The notes under the pieces: model-generated
What the model was told of the DNA's origin: nothing
The model's input: only the letters and a program-made list of their open reading frames with translations
Database searches by the model: none
Assembly: GCA_945876285.1 (NCBI GenBank)
Contig: CAMCNO010000004.1
Coordinates: forward strand, 1 to 64,000
Length of the DNA stretch: 64,000 bases
Reading direction: 5' to 3'
From: an uncultured Clostridia bacterium
GTDB lineage: Bacteria; Bacillota; Clostridia; Oscillospirales; Oscillospiraceae
Translations under genes and position numbers: made by a program
Shown: one piece after another, positions 55,695 to 64,000 of the stretch
How positions within the stretch are numbered: the stretch's first letter is position 1
How the letters are laid out: every line of letters starts with the position of its first letter

Positions 55695-56123
55695 TTAGTG
55701 TTCACAGAGCAGGTGCAGGGCCTCCACATAGCCCGGCAGGCCGTGGCCCTTGATAGTAGCGATGCAGGCGGCGCGTATATAGGAGGTGTGCCGGAATTCC
55801 TCCCGGCCATCTGGGTCAGACACATGGACCTCCACCGTGGGGATGCCCACGGCTTTCACCGCGTCCAGCAGCGCCACGCTGGTGTGGGTGTAGGCGGCAG
55901 GATTGATGATGATACCGTCCACCTTGTCGAAGTAGGCCTGCTGGATGGCGTCCACCAATGCTCCCTCGTGGTTGGACTGGAAGAAGCTGATGTCCACGCC
56001 CAGCTTGTCGGCCTCTGTCTGAAGCATGTCGCACAGGTCCTGATAAGTGGCCTTGCCGTAGATCTCCGGCTGACGGATGCCCAACATGTTCATATTGGGG
56101 CCGTTAAGCACCAGAATGTTCAC
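55695..56123 (-). CDS. aroQ: Type II 3-dehydroquinate dehydratase
   Basis: The product has 142 residues from a GTG start at 56123 behind GGAGGG; the longer frame lies inside the aroEK gene. The enzyme removes water from 3-dehydroquinate in the third step of the shikimate pathway. Family markers are ILVLNGPNMNMLGIRQPEIYG, with the catalytic Tyr, SNHEGALVDAIQQA, and NPAAYTHTSVALLDA. The later VHVSDPDGREEFRHTS region carries the substrate-binding residues. It overlaps the end of aroEK by 20 nt and is the last gene of the operon. Confidence 0.95.
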   Translation of the reverse strand: MNILVLNGPNMNMLGIRQPEIYGKATYQDLCDMLQTEADKLGVDISFFQSNHEGALVDAIQQAYFDKVDGIIINPAAYTHTSVALLDAVKAVGIPTVEVHVSDPDGREEFRHTSYIRAACIATIKGHGLPGYVEALHLLCEH

Positions 56124-57348
56124 AAAAATCCCTCCAGATGGCGGCAGCGGTTTCCTCCACCGTGCCGCTGTTTTCAATGGCCGCATCCCGGAAGCGGGCA
56201 TAGAACGGCGCACGCGTTTCCCATAAGGCGTGCAGGTCCGTGGACTGGGAGACAGGGCGGCCGTCGGTGGGCAGGATGTCCAGATCCCGGATCAGGTGAT
56301 AGATGCGGCCGTTCTGGTGAAGCGGCGCGTAATTGCGCTGGTCCATAATGACGCCGCCGCCGGTGAGGATGATCTTGCCGGAGAGCTTTCCCGCCTCCTC
56401 CGTCTCCTCACGCTCCAGTGCCCGGAAGGCGGCTTCGCCGTCCCGGGCAAAGATCTCCGGAATAGAGCAGCCCGCCCGGGCCACAATGCGCTGGTCCACA
56501 TCCACTGCCTCCCGGCCTGTCAGCTTTGCCAGGGCCTGACCCACGGTGGTCTTGCCGCAGCCGGGCATGCCGATCAGGACGATGTTGGTGCATTCCTGCC
56601 GCAGCAGCGCCAGGATGCGTTCATTTTCGCTGTCGGGGATGGACTTGTCAAAGAAGTGCTCCTCCGCCGCCTTGGCCTGGGCCACCAGCATGGGCAGACC
56701 GTCGGAGCAGGGGATACCCAGTTCCTCCGCCTGCAGCAGCAGGGCCGTGCGACGGGGATTGTACACCACGTCCAGCACGCCGGAGCACCGGTGGAAGGCC
56801 GTCAGGTCCACTGCTGCCGCGCCGTTGTTGGGATACATCCCCACCGGGGTCGTGTTTACCACGATATCCGCGTCGGCGTGGCGGCTGAGGTTGCCGTAGT
56901 TGTTCTCGCCGGAGCGGGAGATGACCACCACCTCCCGGGCACCCAGCTTTTTGACGCAGGCCACGGCGGTCAGCGAGGCCCCGCCGCTGCCTAATACCAC
57001 CGCTTTCTTTCCAGCGAAGGAGATGCCCGCCCGCTCCGCCATCCAGCAGAAGCCGGCGGCGTCGGTATTAAAGGCGTACAGCTTGCCGTCAGCCCGGCGG
57101 GTCAGGGTGTTGACGCTGCCGATAGCCTCGGCCATGGGGTCGATGACGTCGCACAAGGGCATCACATCCCGCTTATAGGGGATGGTGACATTCAGTCCAC
57201 CGATGTTGGGCTGGGCGAGGAAACCCGCCAGCTCCTCTGGCTCCAGCTCGATGAGACGATAGCCCTGGCAGCCTAGCGCGGTGTGGATGGGCACGGACCA
57301 GCTGTGGCCCAGCCTCCGGCCCAAAAGGCCGTAAATCTTCTCCACCAT
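56104..57348 (-). CDS. aroEK: Shikimate dehydrogenase-shikimate kinase fusion
   Basis: The product has 414 residues. Residues 1 to about 245 are shikimate dehydrogenase: LLGRRLGHSWSVPIH binds substrate, NVTIPYK (53-59) holds the catalytic Lys59, and the NADP-binding loop is VVLGSGGASLTAVA. Residues 250-414 are shikimate kinase, with Walker A GMPGCGKT (260-267), an Asp-rich VDVDQRIVARAGCSIPEIF, and RALEREE. One protein thus makes two consecutive steps, from dehydroshikimate to shikimate 3-phosphate. Separate aroE and aroK genes are the rule; the fusion occurs in some Clostridia. It lies three bases downstream of pheA. Confidence 0.94.
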   Translation of the reverse strand: MVEKIYGLLGRRLGHSWSVPIHTALGCQGYRLIELEPEELAGFLAQPNIGGLNVTIPYKRDVMPLCDVIDPMAEAIGSVNTLTRRADGKLYAFNTDAAGFCWMAERAGISFAGKKAVVLGSGGASLTAVACVKKLGAREVVVISRSGENNYGNLSRHADADIVVNTTPVGMYPNNGAAAVDLTAFHRCSGVLDVVYNPRRTALLLQAEELGIPCSDGLPMLVAQAKAAEEHFFDKSIPDSENERILALLRQECTNIVLIGMPGCGKTTVGQALAKLTGREAVDVDQRIVARAGCSIPEIFARDGEAAFRALEREETEEAGKLSGKIILTGGGVIMDQRNYAPLHQNGRIYHLIRDLDILPTDGRPVSQSTDLHALWETRAPFYARFRDAAIENSGTVEETAAAIWRDFCEHSGA

Positions 57349-57351
57349 CGG

Positions 57352-58488
57352 TCAAACTTCGGCGTAGCTGCCCAGGAAGTTGAAGCTGGCGCAGCTCCGC
57401 TCCATCTCCTGCAGCATGGGCAGGACGCCGGGGGCCTGCACGTCGGCCTCCAGCTCCAGGAAGAACATGAACTCGAAGTTCCGGCCGCTGACGGGGCAGG
57501 ATTCCAGCTTCGTCATGTTGATGTTCAGCGCCGCCAGCTTGGACAGGATCTCATACAGGGCACCGGGCTTGTTGTCGCAGGCGATGATGAGGCTGATGCG
57601 GTTGGCACCGGCGTAGATGACGGGCTCCTTGGTGATGCAGAAGAAGCGGGTGTAGTTGTTGTCGCTGTTCTGGATGTCGTCGCTGACGCACTCCAGGCCG
57701 TACAGCGCCGCACAGGGGTGGGAGGAGATGGCGGCGGCGTGGCGACTGCCGCTCTCAGCCACCATCTTGGCGGCTACGGCGGTGTTGGCGCAGGGCACCA
57801 CCCGGACGCCATTGAGCCCGTTCAGGAACTTGGAGCACTGGCCGATGGCCTGCTCGTGGGAGTAAATTTCTGTAATGTCCTCCAGCTTCACACCGGGCAG
57901 GGCCAGCAGCTCATGGCGGATGCACAGCCGGGTGGAGCGGACCACGGACAGCTTGTGAGACTGCAGCAGCTCGTAAACAGCACGGACGGAGCCGTTGGAG
58001 CTGTTCTCAATGGGCAGCACACCAAATTTGCACAGGCCGGACTCCACAGCGGATACCACTGCGTCAAAGGTCTTGACGTACACGATGTTGCCCCGGGGCA
58101 GGATGCGGTCGCAGGCCACCTGGGAGTTGGCACCCTCCACGCCCTGGCAGGCCACCAGGCCTGTCTGGGGGAACACGGGGCCGCCGGCGGCCAGGGAGGC
58201 CTCCACCCGGGCGGCAACCTTGGTGGGCGCGTCAATCAGCTCCGCCTGCCGGGACCGGGCCAGCTCGAACAGCGTGGAGAACAGGTGGTAGGCGTACTGC
58301 TCCTTCTCCCCGGCCTTTTCCGTGACCTTGGCCAGAATTTCCCGCTCCCGCTGCTTGTTCAGGATGGGCAGGTGGTGCTCGTTCTTGTAGGCGGCCACCT
58401 CCTCGCTCAGGGCCATGCGCTGGAGAAAGAGGTCCAAAAGCTGGTCGTCCACTGCGTCGATTTTGACGCGAATATCAGAAAGTTCCAT
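57352..58488 (-). CDS. pheA: Chorismate mutase-prephenate dehydratase (P-protein)
   Basis: The product has 378 residues. Residues 1-85 are an AroQ-type chorismate mutase (IRVKIDAVDDQLLDLFLQRM). The prephenate dehydratase domain follows (about 105-285), with the NNYTRFFCI motif that holds the catalytic Thr-Arg-Phe. The C-terminal ACT domain (about 298-375) reads ESCPVSGRNFEFMFFLELE, a variant of the usual ESRP motif, and would bind phenylalanine for feedback control. The enzyme turns chorismate to phenylpyruvate. It overlaps aroC by 14 nt. Confidence 0.95.
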   Translation of the reverse strand: MELSDIRVKIDAVDDQLLDLFLQRMALSEEVAAYKNEHHLPILNKQREREILAKVTEKAGEKEQYAYHLFSTLFELARSRQAELIDAPTKVAARVEASLAAGGPVFPQTGLVACQGVEGANSQVACDRILPRGNIVYVKTFDAVVSAVESGLCKFGVLPIENSSNGSVRAVYELLQSHKLSVVRSTRLCIRHELLALPGVKLEDITEIYSHEQAIGQCSKFLNGLNGVRVVPCANTAVAAKMVAESGSRHAAAISSHPCAALYGLECVSDDIQNSDNNYTRFFCITKEPVIYAGANRISLIIACDNKPGALYEILSKLAALNINMTKLESCPVSGRNFEFMFFLELEADVQAPGVLPMLQEMERSCASFNFLGSYAEV

Positions 58489-59566
58489 GGTTTCCCTCCA
58501 AAAGTAAGTCTAGTAATACCGTCGCGGTAACGGCCTCCACCACCGGGACGGCCCGGTGGGCGATGCAGGGGTCGTGACGGCCCCGGATGACCAGCTCAGC
58601 TGGTTCTTGTGCTGACAGACTGACGGTCCGCTGAGCCTGAGAGATGGAAGGCGTGGGCTTCATCGCCACCCGCAGCGTGACAGGCATGCCGGTGGTGATG
58701 CCGCCCAGGATACCGCCCGCCCGGTTGGTCTCCGTGACGATTTTGCCGTTTTCCACTGTAAAGGGGTCGTTGTTTTCAGAGCCGTGGAGCCGGGCGGAGC
58801 CAAAGCCCAGACCAAACTCCACGCCCTTGACGGCGGGGATGCCGAACAGAGCAGCAGCGAGGCGGTTTTCGATGCCGTCAAACATGGGGTCGCCCAGTCC
58901 GGCAGGCAGGCCGACGGCGGCACATTCGATGACGCCGCCCACAGAGTCCAGATGCTCCCGGGCCTCCAGAATCAGGGCCTGCATCCGCTCTCCGGCCTGG
59001 TCGTCCAGCACCGGGAAGGCCTTGGCGGCCACCTCGTCAAAGAGGGCGGCGGAGGGACGCAGGGGAAAAGGAGAATCGGTTTCCGTGCCCACGGAAGCAA
59101 GGTGGGCGCCCACGTAAATACCACGCCGGGCCAGAATCTGCTTGGCAATGCCGCCGGCGATGCACAGGGGCGCCGTCAGGCGGCCGGAGAAGTGTCCGCC
59201 GCCCCGCATGTCCGCCTGCCCGCCCCACTTCATCCAGGCGGTATAGTCCGCATGGGAGGGCCGGGGCTTGTCGGCAAGCTCGCTGTAATCCGAGGAGTGC
59301 TGGTCGCTGTTCTCAATGATGGCGCACAGCGGCGCGCCGCAGGTGACGTTGTTTTCAAGGCCGGAGAGAAAGATGGGCGTGTCCGCTTCCTTTCTCATGG
59401 TGGACAGGCGGCTCTTTCCCGGCTTCCGCCGGTCGAGAAACGCGTTCAGCTTCTCCATGTCGATGGCTTCCCCGGCGGGGAGCCCGTCGATATTTACGCC
59501 GATGGCCCTGCCGTGAGACTGGCCGAAGACCGATACCCGCAGCAGCTTTCCAAATTCAGAGGACAT
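58475..59566 (-). CDS. aroC: Chorismate synthase
   Basis: The product has 363 residues. This FMN-dependent enzyme makes chorismate in the last step of the shikimate pathway. The N-terminal motif reads VFGQSHGRAIGV, with Gln where most family members have Glu (GESHG). RPSHADYTAWMKWGG, RGGGHFSGRLTAPLCIAGG and GGILGGITTGMPV are further hallmarks. The start ATG at 59566 has GGAGGTG upstream and overlaps the end of aroA by 11 nt; the longer open frame lies within aroA. Confidence 0.95.
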   Translation of the reverse strand: MSSEFGKLLRVSVFGQSHGRAIGVNIDGLPAGEAIDMEKLNAFLDRRKPGKSRLSTMRKEADTPIFLSGLENNVTCGAPLCAIIENSDQHSSDYSELADKPRPSHADYTAWMKWGGQADMRGGGHFSGRLTAPLCIAGGIAKQILARRGIYVGAHLASVGTETDSPFPLRPSAALFDEVAAKAFPVLDDQAGERMQALILEAREHLDSVGGVIECAAVGLPAGLGDPMFDGIENRLAAALFGIPAVKGVEFGLGFGSARLHGSENNDPFTVENGKIVTETNRAGGILGGITTGMPVTLRVAMKPTPSISQAQRTVSLSAQEPAELVIRGRHDPCIAHRAVPVVEAVTATVLLDLLLEGNHGTF

Positions 59567-60728
59567 CAAAAACACCTCCCAGTTGCTTGTAGTCCTCCCA
59601 GAAGGAGGGATAGGATTTTTTGACTGCCTCCGCACCAAGGATGGTGACCGGGGCGGCGGAGTGGGTGGCGGCGATGGCTGCCGCCATGACGATGCGGTGG
59701 TCGTTGGCGCCGTCCACCGTGCCGCCGGTAAAGGACGTGATACCTTGGACCGTCAGGCTGTCGGGGCCGTCTTCCGCCTTGCCGCCCAAAGCGTTCAGCA
59801 AGGCGGCGGTGGTGGCGAGGCGGTCGCTCTCCTTGATGCGGAGCCGGGCGGCGTTGACAAATCGGGTGGTGCCGTTCCGCATCGCCGCCATTACCGCCAG
59901 GGGCGGCAGCAGGTCCGGGCAGCCGGACACATCGATGTCCACATCGCCGGACTTCGCCAGCTTCCAGTAGAGGGAGGCCACCACCCGGTCACCCTGAGCA
60001 GAGCCGGGGTTCAGGCCCTGAATGGAGACACGGTTCTCCAGGAAGTTGGCGGCGTACCAGAAGCCCGCCTGGGACCAGTCGGATTCCACGGCGATGTCCC
60101 GGGCGGTGTAGGTCTGCTTCCCGGGGATATGGAAGACCGCATAGTTCTGGTTTTCCACGGCGATGCCGAACTTTTCCAGCATATCCAGCGTCATGTCCAC
60201 ATATCCGCTGGATTCCAGCGGCGTGGTGATTTTAATAGTGGAATCTGCCGACAGCAGGGGCAAGGCGTACAACAGTCCCGTGACGAACTGGCTGGACACA
60301 TTGCCGGGCAGGCGGTACACGCCGGGAGTCAGCGTCCCCCGGACGGTGAGCACGCCATCCGTTTGCTCGTAAAAAATGCCCTTTTCATCGAAAATATCAA
60401 AGTAGGGCTGCTGGGGGCGTTCCATCAGGCGGCCATGTCCGGTGAATACACCGCCGCCTGCCACCGCCAGCGCGATAGGGATGAGAAAGCGGAGGGTGGA
60501 GCCGGATTCGCCGCAGTCCAGGAAAGGCAGCTCCCCGTCGGGGCGGGGGGCTTTCAGGGCTTCCACACAGCGTTTCGTGGCCTGAATGTCCTGAGAGTCG
60601 CTGAGATTTGACAGTGTGCCTGCGCCGCCAGCCAGCGCCATCGCCAGCACCGCCCGGTGGGCCATGGACTTGCTGGCGGGAGGCGTCACAGCGCCGTGCA
60701 GCTTTTGGGGTGTGATGCGGATATCCAT
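59556..60728 (-). CDS. aroA: 3-phosphoshikimate 1-carboxyvinyltransferase (EPSP synthase)
   Basis: The product has 390 residues, slightly short for the family (about 427). It joins shikimate 3-phosphate and phosphoenolpyruvate. The N-terminal part contains GAVTPPASKSMAHRAVLAMALA, with the catalytic Lys in SKSMAHR, and DCGESGSTLRFLIPIAL follows, holding the phosphate-binding residues. The late stretches LRIKESDRLATTAALLNALG and DGANDHRIVMAAAIAA are also conserved. It starts one base after aroB ends. Confidence 0.95.
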   Translation of the reverse strand: MDIRITPQKLHGAVTPPASKSMAHRAVLAMALAGGAGTLSNLSDSQDIQATKRCVEALKAPRPDGELPFLDCGESGSTLRFLIPIALAVAGGGVFTGHGRLMERPQQPYFDIFDEKGIFYEQTDGVLTVRGTLTPGVYRLPGNVSSQFVTGLLYALPLLSADSTIKITTPLESSGYVDMTLDMLEKFGIAVENQNYAVFHIPGKQTYTARDIAVESDWSQAGFWYAANFLENRVSIQGLNPGSAQGDRVVASLYWKLAKSGDVDIDVSGCPDLLPPLAVMAAMRNGTTRFVNAARLRIKESDRLATTAALLNALGGKAEDGPDSLTVQGITSFTGGTVDGANDHRIVMAAAIAATHSAAPVTILGAEAVKKSYPSFWEDYKQLGGVFDVL

Positions 60729-60729
60729 G

Positions 60730-61797
60730 TCAGCCCTCCAGTCCTGCCCGGATAATGGGCAGCAGGTCCGCTACCGGGACCTTTTTCAGTTCACAGACGC
60801 CGATTTTCTTCGGGATGACCAGGGTGATATCCCCGCCTGAGCGCTTTTTGTCCGCCAAAGCTGCCTCGGCAAGTGTTTCGGCGGAATATTCTGACCCGGT
60901 GGGCAGGCCGTTTTTGGCAAGGCAGGCGGCAATGCGGGCGGCGATGGGGTCCTCGGTCCAGCCCAGGGCTTCAGCGCTTCGGGCAATGATGGCAAGGCCT
61001 GCCGCTACTGCATGGCCGTGAGGGATGGCGTAACCGCTGCACTTCTCAATGGCGTGGCCTACGGTGTGGCCCAGGTTCAGCAGCTTCCGCTCGCCCTGCT
61101 CCTTTTCGTCCCGTTCCACCACACCGGCCTTGTACCGAATGCACCGGGCAATGACCTCTTCCGGCGCGGCGGTGAGGGTGCCGTCCTCAAACAGGGCGAA
61201 CAGGCTTTCGTCGTCCAGCACGCCGGTCTTGATGGCCTCGGCAGCGCCATCCGCAAAGACCTCCGCGGGCAGGGAGCGGAGGCAGTCCGTGTCGCACAGG
61301 ACCGCCGTTGGCTGGAGAAAAGCGCCTGCCAGGTTCTTGCCTGCCGCCAGGTCGATGGCGGTCTTGCCGCCCACGGAGGAATCCACGGCGGAAAGCAGGG
61401 TGGTGGGGAGCTGGACACAGCGGATACCCCGGAGGTAGCAGGCGGCGGCAAACCCCGCCATATCCCCGGTGACGCCGCCGCCAAGAGCGGCCACGCAGTC
61501 GGTGCGGGTCAGGCGCTGCTCCGCCAGAAACTCCAGAATGGCGGCTAGGGTGGTAAAGTTTTTGCTGCCCTCCCCGGCGGGGAAGGTATACGAACAGACG
61601 GTGAACCCGGCACCCTCCAGGCTGCCGGTCACCGTCTTGAGATATAAGGGGGCCACGGTGCTGTCGGTAATAACGGCAACGCGGCAGGGAGCCAGCACCT
61701 CCCGGAGGCGCTGACCGCAGGTATGCAGCAGTCCGCCGCCGATGGAAACCTCATAGGCGGGGGCGGTATGGACTTGGATGGTCTGAATGGAGGACAT
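60730..61797 (-). CDS. aroB: 3-dehydroquinate synthase
   Basis: The product has 355 residues. It turns DAHP to 3-dehydroquinate using NAD and a divalent metal. The NAD-binding and active-site segments ALGGGVTGDMAGFAAACYLRG, PTTLLSAVDSSVGGKTAIDL and LNLGHTVGHAIEKCSGY, which holds the metal-binding His, are present. The enzyme is the second of the shikimate pathway. The gene begins 39 nt after tyrA and has a GGAGGGAC ribosome site before its ATG. Confidence 0.95.
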   Translation of the reverse strand: MSSIQTIQVHTAPAYEVSIGGGLLHTCGQRLREVLAPCRVAVITDSTVAPLYLKTVTGSLEGAGFTVCSYTFPAGEGSKNFTTLAAILEFLAEQRLTRTDCVAALGGGVTGDMAGFAAACYLRGIRCVQLPTTLLSAVDSSVGGKTAIDLAAGKNLAGAFLQPTAVLCDTDCLRSLPAEVFADGAAEAIKTGVLDDESLFALFEDGTLTAAPEEVIARCIRYKAGVVERDEKEQGERKLLNLGHTVGHAIEKCSGYAIPHGHAVAAGLAIIARSAEALGWTEDPIAARIAACLAKNGLPTGSEYSAETLAEAALADKKRSGGDITLVIPKKIGVCELKKVPVADLLPIIRAGLEG

Positions 61798-61836
61798 AGG
61801 GTCCCTCCTTATTATAATATGGAAGCGAATAAAGCG

Positions 61837-62673
61837 TTAGTTCCCGCCTGCGCTGGCCTTCTTTTCCCGGCCGTCCTTCAGAAGAGCGTGGAGCGTTTCC
61901 GCATCCCGGTTTTGCAGGGCCTCCTGGTATTCCGTCAGATGGCGGATCAGCTCACCGACCTCCTTGGTCAGGTAGTCGGCGTCGTCCAGGAACAGCTCCG
62001 TCCACATGTCCTCGTCCAGCCGGGCCACACGGGTCATATCCCGGAAGCTGCCGGCGGAGAAGCCCCGGCGGCGCTGGGCCTCGGGGGACTTGATGTAGGC
62101 GCTGGAGACGATGTGGGCCAGCTGGGAGGTGTAGGCGATGATGCGGTCATGCTCGTCCGGCGTGGAGAAGGTCAGAGAGGCGAAGCCGATATCCAGGAAG
62201 AAGGCTTTCAGCATCTCCAGCAGCTGCATGTCCGTCCGCTTGTCCGGCGTCAGGATCATGGAAGCACCTACGTACAGATCCTCTGTGGCGGAGGTAAAGC
62301 CTCCCCGCTCCTTGCCTGCCATGGGGTGGCCGCCGATGTAGGCGAAACCGTACTGCTCGGCGATGGGGGCGATGCCCTCCACAACGACACGCTTCACGCC
62401 GCACAGGTCCACCAGAACGGCGGACTTGCTGATGACGTCCGCGTTTCGCCGCACCCACTCCACGGCGGCGCCGGGGCGAATGGCGACCAGAATAAGGTCG
62501 CACTGAGGCAGGTTCTCACGGGTCAGAGGAGCGTCGATGGCGCCGCACATCCGGGCCATCATCAAGGTCTCATCACTGCGGGCAATGCCGTACACCGTGT
62601 GGCCGGTGCGGGCCTTGATGCTTTTTGCCATGGAGCCGCCGATGAGCCCCAGACCGACGATACCAACATTCAT
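61837..62673 (-). CDS. tyrA: Prephenate dehydrogenase
   Basis: The product has 278 residues and lacks a C-terminal ACT domain. It oxidises prephenate to 4-hydroxyphenylpyruvate with NAD, the committed step to tyrosine. The NAD-binding motif is VGIVGLGLIGGSMAKSIKA at the start, and the catalytic His lies in GGHPMAGKERGGF near residue 132. The partner segment ILTPDKRTD follows. It could also accept arogenate; the sequence does not decide this. It lies four bases after the DAHP synthase gene. Confidence 0.94.
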   Translation of the reverse strand: MNVGIVGLGLIGGSMAKSIKARTGHTVYGIARSDETLMMARMCGAIDAPLTRENLPQCDLILVAIRPGAAVEWVRRNADVISKSAVLVDLCGVKRVVVEGIAPIAEQYGFAYIGGHPMAGKERGGFTSATEDLYVGASMILTPDKRTDMQLLEMLKAFFLDIGFASLTFSTPDEHDRIIAYTSQLAHIVSSAYIKSPEAQRRRGFSAGSFRDMTRVARLDEDMWTELFLDDADYLTKEVGELIRHLTEYQEALQNRDAETLHALLKDGREKKASAGGN

Positions 62674-62677
62674 GATC

Positions 62678-63691
62678 TCAGTCCTCCAAAGATTTCACCA
62701 TTTCGTGGAGCTTCAGCAGCTTCTTCGCCAGGGGGTCGAATACCTCGGGCTTCAGAGACTGGGGGCCGTCGCACAGGGCGCGGGCGGGGTCATTGTGGAC
62801 CTCGATCTGGAGGCCATCGGCTCCGGTCGCCACAGCGCCCATGGCCAGGGGCTCCACCAGCCAGCTCTTGCCGGTGGCATGGCTGGGATCGATGATGATG
62901 GGCAGGTGGGTCAGCTTTTTCAGAACGGGGATAGCGGCCAGATCCAGGGTGTTGCGGGTGTAGCTCTCGAAGGTGCGGATGCCCCGCTCGCAGAGGATGA
63001 CGTTCTCATTGCCGCCGGCCATGACGTACTCGGCGCTCATCAGCCATTCCTCATAGGTGGCGGACATGCCGCGCTTGATCATCACGGGCTTGTCCTGATG
63101 GCCCACGGCCTTTAAAAGGTCGAAGTTCTGCATGTTCCGGGCGCCGATCTGGATGACGTCCACATCCTTGAACAGGGGGAGCTGACTGAGGTCCATCAGC
63201 TCTGTGACGATGGGGAGGCCGGTCTCCTGCCGGGCGATCTTCAGGTACTCCAGGCCGATGGCGCCCAGGCCCTGGAAGGAGTAGGGAGAGGTGCGGGGCT
63301 TGAAGGCACCGCCGCGGAGCATGGTGGCGCCGCTGGCCTTCACGGCCTTGGCGATGGCCACCACCTGCTCCTCACTTTCCACGGAGCAGGGACCGGCCAT
63401 GATGGTCAGATTGCCGCCGCCGATCTGGGTGTTGCCCACCTGGATGACGGTGTCCTCGGGGTGGAACTTGCGGTTGGCGTTCTTGTAGGGCTCCTGGACC
63501 CGCTTCACATCCTCCACGATGTCCAGGGCGGAGATCAGGTCAATATCCAGCTTGGAGGTGTCGCCCACCAGGCCCAGGATGGTGTGGGCCTCGCCGATGC
63601 TGGTGTGGATGGTGACGCCCTTTTCCTGGAGCCAGGTGATGAGGCTTTCCAGCTGGTCACGGTTGGGATTTTGTTTCAGAATGACGATCAT
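62678..63691 (-). CDS. aroF: DAHP synthase (3-deoxy-7-phosphoheptulonate synthase), type with N-terminal regulatory domain
   Basis: The product has 337 residues. It joins phosphoenolpyruvate and erythrose 4-phosphate, the first step of the shikimate pathway. Residues 1-65 form a ferredoxin-like regulatory domain (MIVILKQNPNRDQLESLITW), as in the Thermotoga-type enzyme, that senses aromatic amino acids. The barrel follows, with IMAGPCSVESEEQ, LRGGAFKPRTSPYSFQG, and DPSHATGKSWLVEPL. The ATG at 63691 has AAGGAGG eight bases upstream. It heads an eight-gene aromatic operon behind a leader ORF and attenuator. An in-frame extension upstream crosses the terminator and is not used. Confidence 0.95.
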   Translation of the reverse strand: MIVILKQNPNRDQLESLITWLQEKGVTIHTSIGEAHTILGLVGDTSKLDIDLISALDIVEDVKRVQEPYKNANRKFHPEDTVIQVGNTQIGGGNLTIMAGPCSVESEEQVVAIAKAVKASGATMLRGGAFKPRTSPYSFQGLGAIGLEYLKIARQETGLPIVTELMDLSQLPLFKDVDVIQIGARNMQNFDLLKAVGHQDKPVMIKRGMSATYEEWLMSAEYVMAGGNENVILCERGIRTFESYTRNTLDLAAIPVLKKLTHLPIIIDPSHATGKSWLVEPLAMGAVATGADGLQIEVHNDPARALCDGPQSLKPEVFDPLAKKLLKLHEMVKSLED

Positions 63692-63728
63692 AACAGGTTC
63701 CTCCTTGAAAAATGACAAGTTTCGGTGT

Positions 63729-63761
63729 GAAAAAAGGCCCGCAGCCGGTTGGCTGCGGGCC
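63729..63761 (-). terminator. Attenuator terminator before the aromatic operon
   Basis: An 11-bp perfect stem, GGCCCGCAGCC / GGCTGCGGGCC (63736-63761), has a 4-nt loop. On the minus strand it is followed directly by TTTTTTC. It lies between the leader ORF and aroF, 38 nt before the aroF start. Confidence 0.92.
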
Positions 63762-63792
63762 CCCATGTACGGACAGTTTTGAAAAAACCGAC

Positions 63793-63891
63793 TTACATGC
63801 CCACGCGTTCAGCCAAACCGAAATAAGCCTTACCGGTAAAATAGGTAAAGCTAAAGTAGCGGTATTCAGCAGCGCGGGCGATGTTCGTCAT
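63793..63891 (-). CDS. Aromatic-rich leader peptide of the aro operon
   Basis: The ORF has 32 codons, starting at an ATG with AGGAG nine bases upstream. It contains the run EYRYFSFTYF and then AYF, so eight of 32 codons are Tyr or Phe and all lie between positions 10 and 24. The start, the ribosome site and the position ahead of a strong terminator are what a trp-type leader peptide needs. The sequence near the stop codon (63799-63814) can pair with the 5' arm of the terminator, which would act as antiterminator when a ribosome stalls at the Tyr/Phe codons. I read it as a regulatory peptide with no role of its own once made. Confidence 0.85.
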   Translation of the reverse strand: MTNIARAAEYRYFSFTYFTGKAYFGLAERVGM

Positions 63892-63930
63892 AGGGAAGTA
63901 CTCCTTTTTGCGTGCTCTTTAGATGTTTAA

Positions 63931-63939
63931 AGCATAACA
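63931..63939 (-). promoter_or_regulatory. Possible extended -10 promoter of the aro operon
   Basis: On the minus strand the sequence TGTTATGCT gives an extended -10 box (TGn-TATGCT), 40 bases upstream of the leader peptide start. The -35 region is poor. The remaining bases to the window edge (63940-64000) show nothing else. Confidence 0.4.
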
Positions 63940-64000
63940 CTTTGGGAAGGAAAAGGAAATCGTAAATTCCTCCAAAAATAAGCGGAGAAAGGAGGCAAAA

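Follow-up and report, generated by a model that had tools for sequence, protein, structure and literature searches.

The window (the whole 64,000-nucleotide stretch analysed) contains an operon for aromatic amino acid synthesis that is headed by aroF and preceded by a short ORF rich in Phe and Tyr codons, and the question raised by this locus is whether translation of the ORF could govern transcription of the operon behind it. Leader attenuators are classical in Proteobacteria, and accounts of aromatic operons in Firmicutes usually centre on T-boxes or TRAP. The earlier note had read the locus as attenuation of the pathway by both Phe and Tyr, a reading that the sequence analyses described below support. 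We regard the element as a ribosome-mediated transcription attenuator that would tie transcription of the operon to how much charged tRNA-Phe and tRNA-Tyr is available; based on sequence and computation, we give this a probability of roughly 0.9.

The leader, its terminator and the aromatic operon

Reading of the sequence bore out the earlier description of the leader: a 32-codon ORF is located at 63793-63891 on the minus strand, AAGGAG is found 9 nt before its ATG, and the translation, MTNIARAAEYRYFSFTYFTGKAYFGLAERVGM, confirmed the count of eight Tyr/Phe codons between positions 10 and 24 (codons 10, 12, 13, 15, 17, 18, 23 and 24). On the minus strand, AAGGAG, the leader ORF, the terminator with its T6 and the start of aroF at 63691 follow one another in this order (Table 1). 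The terminator that had been placed between leader and aroF at 63736-63761 plus T6 was present as given (GGCCCGCAGCC-AACC-GGCTGCGGGCC at 63761-63736, followed by T6 at 63735-63730). The locus has the parts of an attenuator, namely a short ORF predicted to be translatable, with a ribosome site, ahead of the operon; clustered codons for end products of that operon (eight Phe/Tyr codons, with both tyrA and pheA in the operon); an intrinsic terminator between the leader and the first gene; and an antiterminator incompatible with this terminator. The ORF, its codons, the terminator, the antiterminator, a hairpin within the ORF and the conservation of these parts are established by sequence and computation. 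A consensus scan of the window found no promoter and overlooked the terminator on the minus strand.

The aromatic operon said to lie behind the leader was matched by profiles as aroF-tyrA-aroB-aroA-aroC-pheA-aroE/aroK-aroQ, with aroF as its first gene and with the section after aroF spanning 55695-62673, all genes being on the minus strand. Since the aroQ match begins at residue 31-33, the true start of aroQ is later than the start of its ORF. It was further noticed that shikimate dehydrogenase and shikimate kinase are apparently encoded by one fused ORF of 414 aa (window 56104-57348).

Table 1. Positions of the leader elements and of the operon genes in the window
Feature	Position	Strand	Description and evidence
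Shine-Dalgarno AAGGAG	63901..63906	-	ATG 9 nt downstream
Leader ORF	63793..63891	-	32 codons + TAA; ATG at 63891, TAA at 63795-63793
GCCCGCGC	63872..63879	-	Local extra pairing with 63806-63799; no-ribosome fold
Segment P, GCUGAAUACCG	63860..63870	-	Codons 8-11, putative protector; pairs with C in ribosome-free fold; overlaps first Tyr codon
Segment A, AGCUUUACC	63844..63852	-	Ser-Phe-Thr codons, 5′ arm of intra-ORF hairpin; fold, alignment, codon counts
Segment B, GGUAAGGCU	63826..63834	-	Gly-Lys-Ala codons, 3′ arm of intra-ORF hairpin; fold, alignment, codon counts
Segment C, GGUUUGGCU	63811..63819	-	Gly-Leu-Ala codons, antiterminator 5′ arm; duplex and covariation tests
Segment D, GGCCCGCAGCC + loop AACC	63747..63761	-	Terminator 5′ arm and loop; pairs with C (antiterminator) or E (terminator)
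Segment E, GGCUGCGGGCC + U6	63730..63746	-	Terminator 3′ arm; sequence, covariation
aroF	62678..63691	-	3-Deoxy-7-phosphoheptulonate synthase; NF006421, 493.6 bits versus cut-off 335; TIGR01361 over cut-off
tyrA	61837-62673	-	Best match, below curated cut-off
aroB	60730-61797	-	Over curated cut-off
aroA	59556-60728	-	Best match, below curated cut-off
aroC	about 58475-59569	-	Over curated cut-off
pheA	57352-58488	-	Best match, below curated cut-off
aroE-aroK fusion	56104-57348	-	Best match, below curated cut-off
aroQ	within 55695-56213	-	Over curated cut-off; match begins at residue 31-33

Phe/Tyr-rich ORFs upstream of aroF

A strict rule (at least 6 Phe/Tyr in 10 codons plus a ribosome site) was applied to 242 non-redundant aroF upstream regions, six fetched loci having given no usable upstream region. 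Leaders were found in 126 regions, compared with 0 in the reverse complements and a mean of 0.8 (maximum 2) in 10 shuffled sets; at no fewer than 7 Phe/Tyr in 10 codons, the respective numbers were 73, 0 and 0.0. The presence of the leaders is not due to chance. They occur in many families and are often of quite different sequence, for example MKNSYSNASYFYFYYYFTYNR and MKIAVFYYAFYFFYYGKNTGAVCA, and the leader of Clostridium chromiireducens (L112) is MQKFYSFFYFTFWGFYFSAGYLFCRKLNNSFLMSV. A Trp codon is present in 28 of the 126 leaders, that of L112 among them, and with Trp accounting for 0.8% of leader residues no enrichment is shown.

By the same RNA logic, a stall anywhere at codons 9-21 would be answered, so that the leader might be an unspecific coupling element, in which any slow translation gives read-through and the Phe/Tyr codons reflect composition. 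We consider this very improbable, since F+Y had the largest excess of all 190 amino-acid pairs at aroF (126 versus 2.0 in three shuffled sets; the next pair, F+S, 41 versus 3.7) and both amino acids are end products of the operon.

Conservation in Oscillibacter and selection on the RNA

The genus of the window is Oscillibacter, or includes it. An AroF search of 60 genomes matched 47, and the best 30 loci were taken, all from the window's genus and its own included. In 28 of these best 30, again including the window, the leader core AEYRYFSFTYF-x-GKAYFGLAE or variants of it were located upstream of aroF, and in L028 and L030 aroF was present with no leader. Conservation of the Tyr/Phe codons in relatives, suggested earlier as a check, is evident both from these loci and from other families. 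With a covariance model of the element, 53 of 61 genus genomes gave a match at E <= 0.01; in 52 of the 61 there was a single strong copy (E <= 5.2e-16), and G003 gave a weak match only (E 0.005). The strong match lay directly before aroF in all 29 genomes having both a match and a mapped aroF. A second weak match in the window's own genome (G000:C2, E 0.009) was rejected, as it overlies an ordinary terminator, which adjoins a small ferredoxin-like ORF (named by eye).

Codon counts in 38 Oscillibacter-type leaders, picked by peptide pattern, revealed that GGT and GCT were each used in 38/38 in block B, and that GGT, TTG and GCT were used in 37, 33 and 35, respectively, in block C, whereas in the aroF genes of the same organisms GGT makes up 11% of Gly, GCT 4% of Ala and TTG 7% of Leu codons. 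AAG and the codons of block A are commonly used ones, TTT being the exception (38/38 in the leaders versus 18% of Phe in aroF). Between A and B, Tyr is encoded freely by either codon (29 TAT, 14 TAC). Holding of rare codons in the blocks, with the Tyr codons left free, indicates that the blocks are kept as RNA and Tyr is kept as codons.

The ORF also contains a strongly kept hairpin (63852-63844 with 63834-63826) that was absent from the earlier note. In the structural alignment, 40 of the 43 sequences had been selected through a pattern matching segments B and C, which biases B/C conservation upward; A:B pairs in 98.4% of cells there with little variation, and its covariation was not above controls (1 double-changed pair, 26/500 shuffles; 2 after a slide of +3). 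L001, L002 and L003 had been entered by hand, and in L054, L056 and L057 D was misplaced by MAFFT. Distant loci keep A:B with both sides changed, as judged by eye, for example ACU:AGU in L056 and GCC:GGC in L054, L073, L101 and L121. An alternative pairing of A with C was rejected, with 76% of cells pairing and one column pair never doing so. RNA running from the F/Y block through the stop folded better than synonymous-codon permutations within each leader, with a mean z of -0.97 (n=124 leaders), 35 of the 124 being below -1.64 and none above +1.64. An earlier control, which pooled the codons of all leaders and was open to G+C bias, had given a mean z of -1.23, with 42/126 below -1.64; the hairpin signal persists, somewhat weaker, once the control is confined within each leader.

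It is also conceivable that the nascent peptide itself halts the ribosome on a free ligand (e.g. free Phe or Tyr) rather than on uncharged tRNA, the RNA switch being the same; TnaC is an arrest peptide of this kind, responding to tryptophan. The peptide core is kept in most of the genus, as such a peptide would be, but for several non-aromatic codons the RNA level accounts for the conservation, rare synonymous codons being held there, and between families the peptides share little except F/Y runs. An arrest peptide is therefore quite improbable.

Pairing of the leader with the terminator

The conserved antiterminator consists of GGUUUGGCU (63819-63811) with AGCC(N)AACC, which comprises the upper part of the terminator 5′ arm together with the loop. 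The earlier note had proposed that GGCU (63811-63814) and GUGGGC (63799-63804) pair with the terminator 5′ arm. The position of GGCU was right and its pairing is conserved, but it makes up only half of the conserved segment; GUGGGC was also correctly placed, but it is a local extra outside the conserved antiterminator, its pairing with GCCCGC being present in the window and L002, with a similar form in L046 and L119 by duplex prediction.

In the same B/C-selected alignment, 95.8% of the cells pair between C and AGCC(N)AACC, and double changes are seen in 3 of 9 pairs (7/500 shuffles); sliding by -1 likewise yields 3, but with only 43.8% of cells pairing. For the terminator, 6 of 9 pairs are changed on both sides (0/500 shuffles). 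The proposed check for covariation in both alternative stems was thus positive for the terminator, and positive but weaker for the antiterminator. Distant loci have other sequences that are still complementary, for example CGUUUGGCU:AGCUAAACG in L056 and GCGUUCACUGC:GCAGUGAGUGC in L073 (Yanshouia hominis).

Duplex tests, which are independent of this alignment, were carried out with 133 non-redundant loci having a leader and a terminator. The duplex of each leader with its own terminator 5′ arm had a mean energy of -14.14 kcal/mol (n=133), versus -10.93 (sd 0.21) kcal/mol when terminators were swapped between loci (0/10,000 as good), -11.71 (sd 0.21) kcal/mol when swaps were restricted to terminators of like GC (0/5,000 as good) and -10.93 (sd 0.21) kcal/mol when the leader side was shuffled (0/60 as good). 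The mean z was -1.53 for the 5′ arm and -0.26 for the 3′ arm control. At single loci, the antiterminator test gave p<=0.05 in only 45/133 and p<=0.01 in 21/133. Cognate duplexes thus beat swapped, GC-matched and shuffled controls, and the complementarity between leader and terminator, first read from the window, is locus-specific. This locus-matched pairing of the ORF RNA with the terminator 5′ arm, together with the RNA-level constraint within the coding sequence, makes it hardly credible that a constitutive terminator of an upstream transcript merely adjoins an unrelated, ordinary small-protein gene, an explanation in favour of which it can be said that eight leader peptides matched no Pfam or NCBIfam family.

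The region 63692-63960 folds at -97.2 kcal/mol versus -69.1 kcal/mol for shuffled sequences (z -5.98), partly because it includes the terminator. In the fold of the whole leader, C is occupied by codons 8-11 (GCUGAAUACCG) and GUGGGC by 63879-63872 (GCCCGCGC), the latter sequence being not conserved across the genus alignment. In 45 Oscillibacter-type loci, two of them duplicates, the probability of C being paired upstream had a mean of 0.73 versus 0.58 for shuffled sequences, with p<=0.05 in 10; it was below the shuffled value in L007, L027, L044, L045 and L050. These predictions lend modest support to segment P acting as a protector of C. The predicted anatomy would fit the classical protector, antiterminator and terminator, the first Tyr codon lying within the protector.

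Ribosome position and the predicted switch

To model the effect of ribosome position, the RNA left free ahead of the ribosome was folded, starting 12 nt beyond the A site and ending with the terminator loop; this covered 132 loci, two of the original 134 having too little room between leader and terminator. Averaged over the 132 loci, D had a probability of 0.70 of being held by upstream RNA when the ribosome was on the first F/Y codon, and of 0.28 when it was on the stop, a fall that is partly trivial because less RNA is free at the stop, so that the shuffled spacer, with 0.50, is the fair control; the ribosome-free value was 0.46. A shift of more than 0.2 from stall to stop occurred in 111 of the 132 loci, and none shifted in the opposite direction. 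The model gives the expected switch over these loci. For the window alone, the in silico probability was 0.83 for a ribosome on the first F/Y codon, versus 0.67 with shuffled spacers, a small margin. By codon, the window values were 0.71-0.83 at codons 10-21, 0.68 at codon 22, 0.39-0.51 at codons 23-26 and 0.05-0.13 from codon 27 to the stop, and 0.32 without a ribosome. With the footprints that we assumed for the ribosome, one positioned on the stop codon of the window's leader touches only the 3′ edge of C.

By analogy with the classical leaders, RNA polymerase would transcribe the leader while a ribosome translates it, and the A:B hairpin most likely pauses the polymerase until the ribosome arrives, as does the 1:2 hairpin of trpL and hisL. 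When Phe or Tyr is short, the ribosome would halt on the first Tyr/Phe block (codons 10-18) and cover segment P, leaving C free to pair with D, and with C:D formed the polymerase would continue into aroF. When both amino acids are plentiful, the ribosome would pass C and reach the stop codon, so that C would be blocked, D would pair with E and transcription would terminate ahead of aroF. Translation of the leader, stalling, pausing and the physiological response are what we infer from this arrangement. A more extended proposal is that the leaders form an undescribed, class-wide Phe/Tyr family that is the usual control of aromatic entry in Clostridia, replacing the T-boxes used elsewhere, and, in addition, that in the Oscillibacter type a stall at the first block (codons 10-18) opens the operon and one at the second block (codons 23-24) half opens it, giving a graded answer; taken as a whole, this is rather doubtful and we put it forward only tentatively.

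Relation to known systems

The kind of mechanism is already known; what seems novel is how widely it occurs in Clostridia, how it apparently alternates with T-boxes, and the hairpin conserved within the coding sequence. In E. coli, trpL, pheL and hisL have end-product codons, an antiterminator opposed to a terminator and an early leader hairpin, a logic shared by the leader in the window, whereas the antiterminator arm is inside the ORF in the latter and after the stop codon in trpL.

C. glutamicum is described as having an aroR leader with Phe-Tyr-Phe before the aroF (DAHP synthase) operon, where ribosome stalling is reported to raise transcription when Phe is limiting and the supply of Tyr to be without effect (PMC11802643, PMC4046766). 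As described there, aroR resembles the leader in the window in being a peptide with Phe/Tyr before a DAHP synthase operon, but it is from Actinobacteria and has three regulatory residues, whereas the window's leader has eight mixed F/Y codons and is from another phylum. Attenuation has also been proposed for uORFC-13-1 of Acholeplasma, a uORF with Phe codon(s) plus a terminator before aroF that has 24 representatives and is described only from Acholeplasma and unassigned environmental sequence (PMC8632094). By this description it is similar to the window's element in consisting of a uORF and a terminator before aroF, and is set apart from the Clostridia leaders by its range. Naville and Gautheret (2010) stated that, ermC aside, they knew of no leader attenuator demonstrated outside Proteobacteria and Actinobacteria, and gave a His leader in bacilli (PMC2965389). 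Later, His leaders were predicted in the B. cereus group, relatives of C. difficile and Erysipelotrichales (PMC9413887), and a Leu/Ile leader of the S. aureus ilv operon is supported by mutants (PMC5794164). As far as these accounts go, the Firmicutes His and ilv leaders are classical leader-peptide attenuators like the window's element, but they concern other amino acids and operons in a few named lineages, whereas here Phe/Tyr leaders precede aroF in 31 of 49 sampled families. Among the papers listed by literature searches, most of them judged by title and beginning of abstract, none describes a Clostridia aroF leader; one attenuator survey could contain one.

A search of the window at 62500-64000 against Rfam with a lax threshold gave seven matches, all below the gathering score. 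The highest, trpB RF04312 (26.8 of 59 bits), was dropped as the family of the leader, 0/20 genomes having a match. At the gathering score, no Rfam match was found at any leader in 60 loci.

Leaders and T-boxes across Clostridia

In the best 80 of 594 named loci, including that of Oscillibacter valericigenes Sjm18-20 (L048), 53 had a leader plus terminator, 11 had an F/Y ORF lacking a clear ribosome site, 12 had none and 4 were counted as having a leader without terminator; in this tally and in the duplex set, L001, L002 and L003 are counted in the last class, their terminators having been missed by the finder because G-U pairs run into the U tract. For a census, 196 genomes were drawn evenly from the class, 143 of which had AroF and 126 of these were covered; in the class-sample AroF search the best 30 loci were retained, as in one further locus search. 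The 126 genomes comprised 68 with leader plus terminator, to which class the window's genome was set by hand, 17 with a T-box (including L263 and L264, which passed the ORF filter and had a T-box and no terminator), 7 with an F/Y ORF lacking a clear ribosome site, 1 with a leader without terminator, 28 with neither and 5 that were short or unusable; the T-box scan of leaderless loci left out L135, L138, L151, L152, L160 and L178. By family, the leader was found in 31 of 49, a T-box in 6 and both in 1. The F/Y leader is the commonest element before aroF in this Clostridia sample. The leader is not an isolated case, in view of the 68/126 census genomes with leader plus terminator and of the published relatives, C. 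glutamicum aroR and Acholeplasma uORFC-13-1.

A T-box reads tRNA charging with no need for translation. It is similar to the proposed attenuator in sensing tRNA charging and in being found before aroF, at 17 Clostridia loci, and differs from it in being independent of translation and absent from the leader-bearing loci scanned. T-boxes (RF00230) were found neither at 20 loci with F/Y ORFs, nor in the 22 scanned of the 68 leader-bearing census loci, nor upstream of aroF in the window. Those over the Rfam cut-off before aroF were in L226, L236, L237, L244, L249, L256, L259, L261, L262, L263, L264, L267, L268, L271, L272, L279 and L285, and all 17 loci are without a terminator-linked F/Y leader. 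There is thus an apparent exchange of tRNA-sensing systems at aroF. In the whole genome from which the window comes (G000), 13 T-box matches were noticed, 7 of them over the cut-off, with T-boxes elsewhere and the leader at aroF.

About half of the Clostridia genomes covered (68/126) would thus have a translation-coupled attenuator before aroF. If read rightly, the leaders would constitute a large new family for catalogues of regulatory RNA, two tRNA-sensing systems would exchange at one gene, and a close coupling of transcription and translation at the leader would be implied for Clostridia. If true, a sensor of Phe/Tyr supply would also be readily at hand for gut bacteria.

Of 29 phylum-level loci, one of which (L300) is from the family of the window, 13 including L300 had a leader plus terminator, 4 had a weak ORF only and 12 had none; for other classes, this amounts to 12 of 28 loci. 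No Rfam match was found in the 20 phylum-level loci scanned. In L053 (DULN01000009.1), the 3′ half of the leader is in a different frame relative to Oscillibacter, yet, as seen by eye, GGTTTGG and its terminator partner are kept. F/Y-run ORFs before aroF were also noticed in bins named outside Firmicutes, namely L110 (Treponema) and L065, L072, L096, L101, L105 and L108 (bins named Thermoguttaceae, Lentisphaerae, Oligosphaeraceae, Treponemataceae and Kiritimatiellae), which may reflect either transfer or mis-binning. Among 11 loci from such bins, only L110 passes the strict rule with a terminator.
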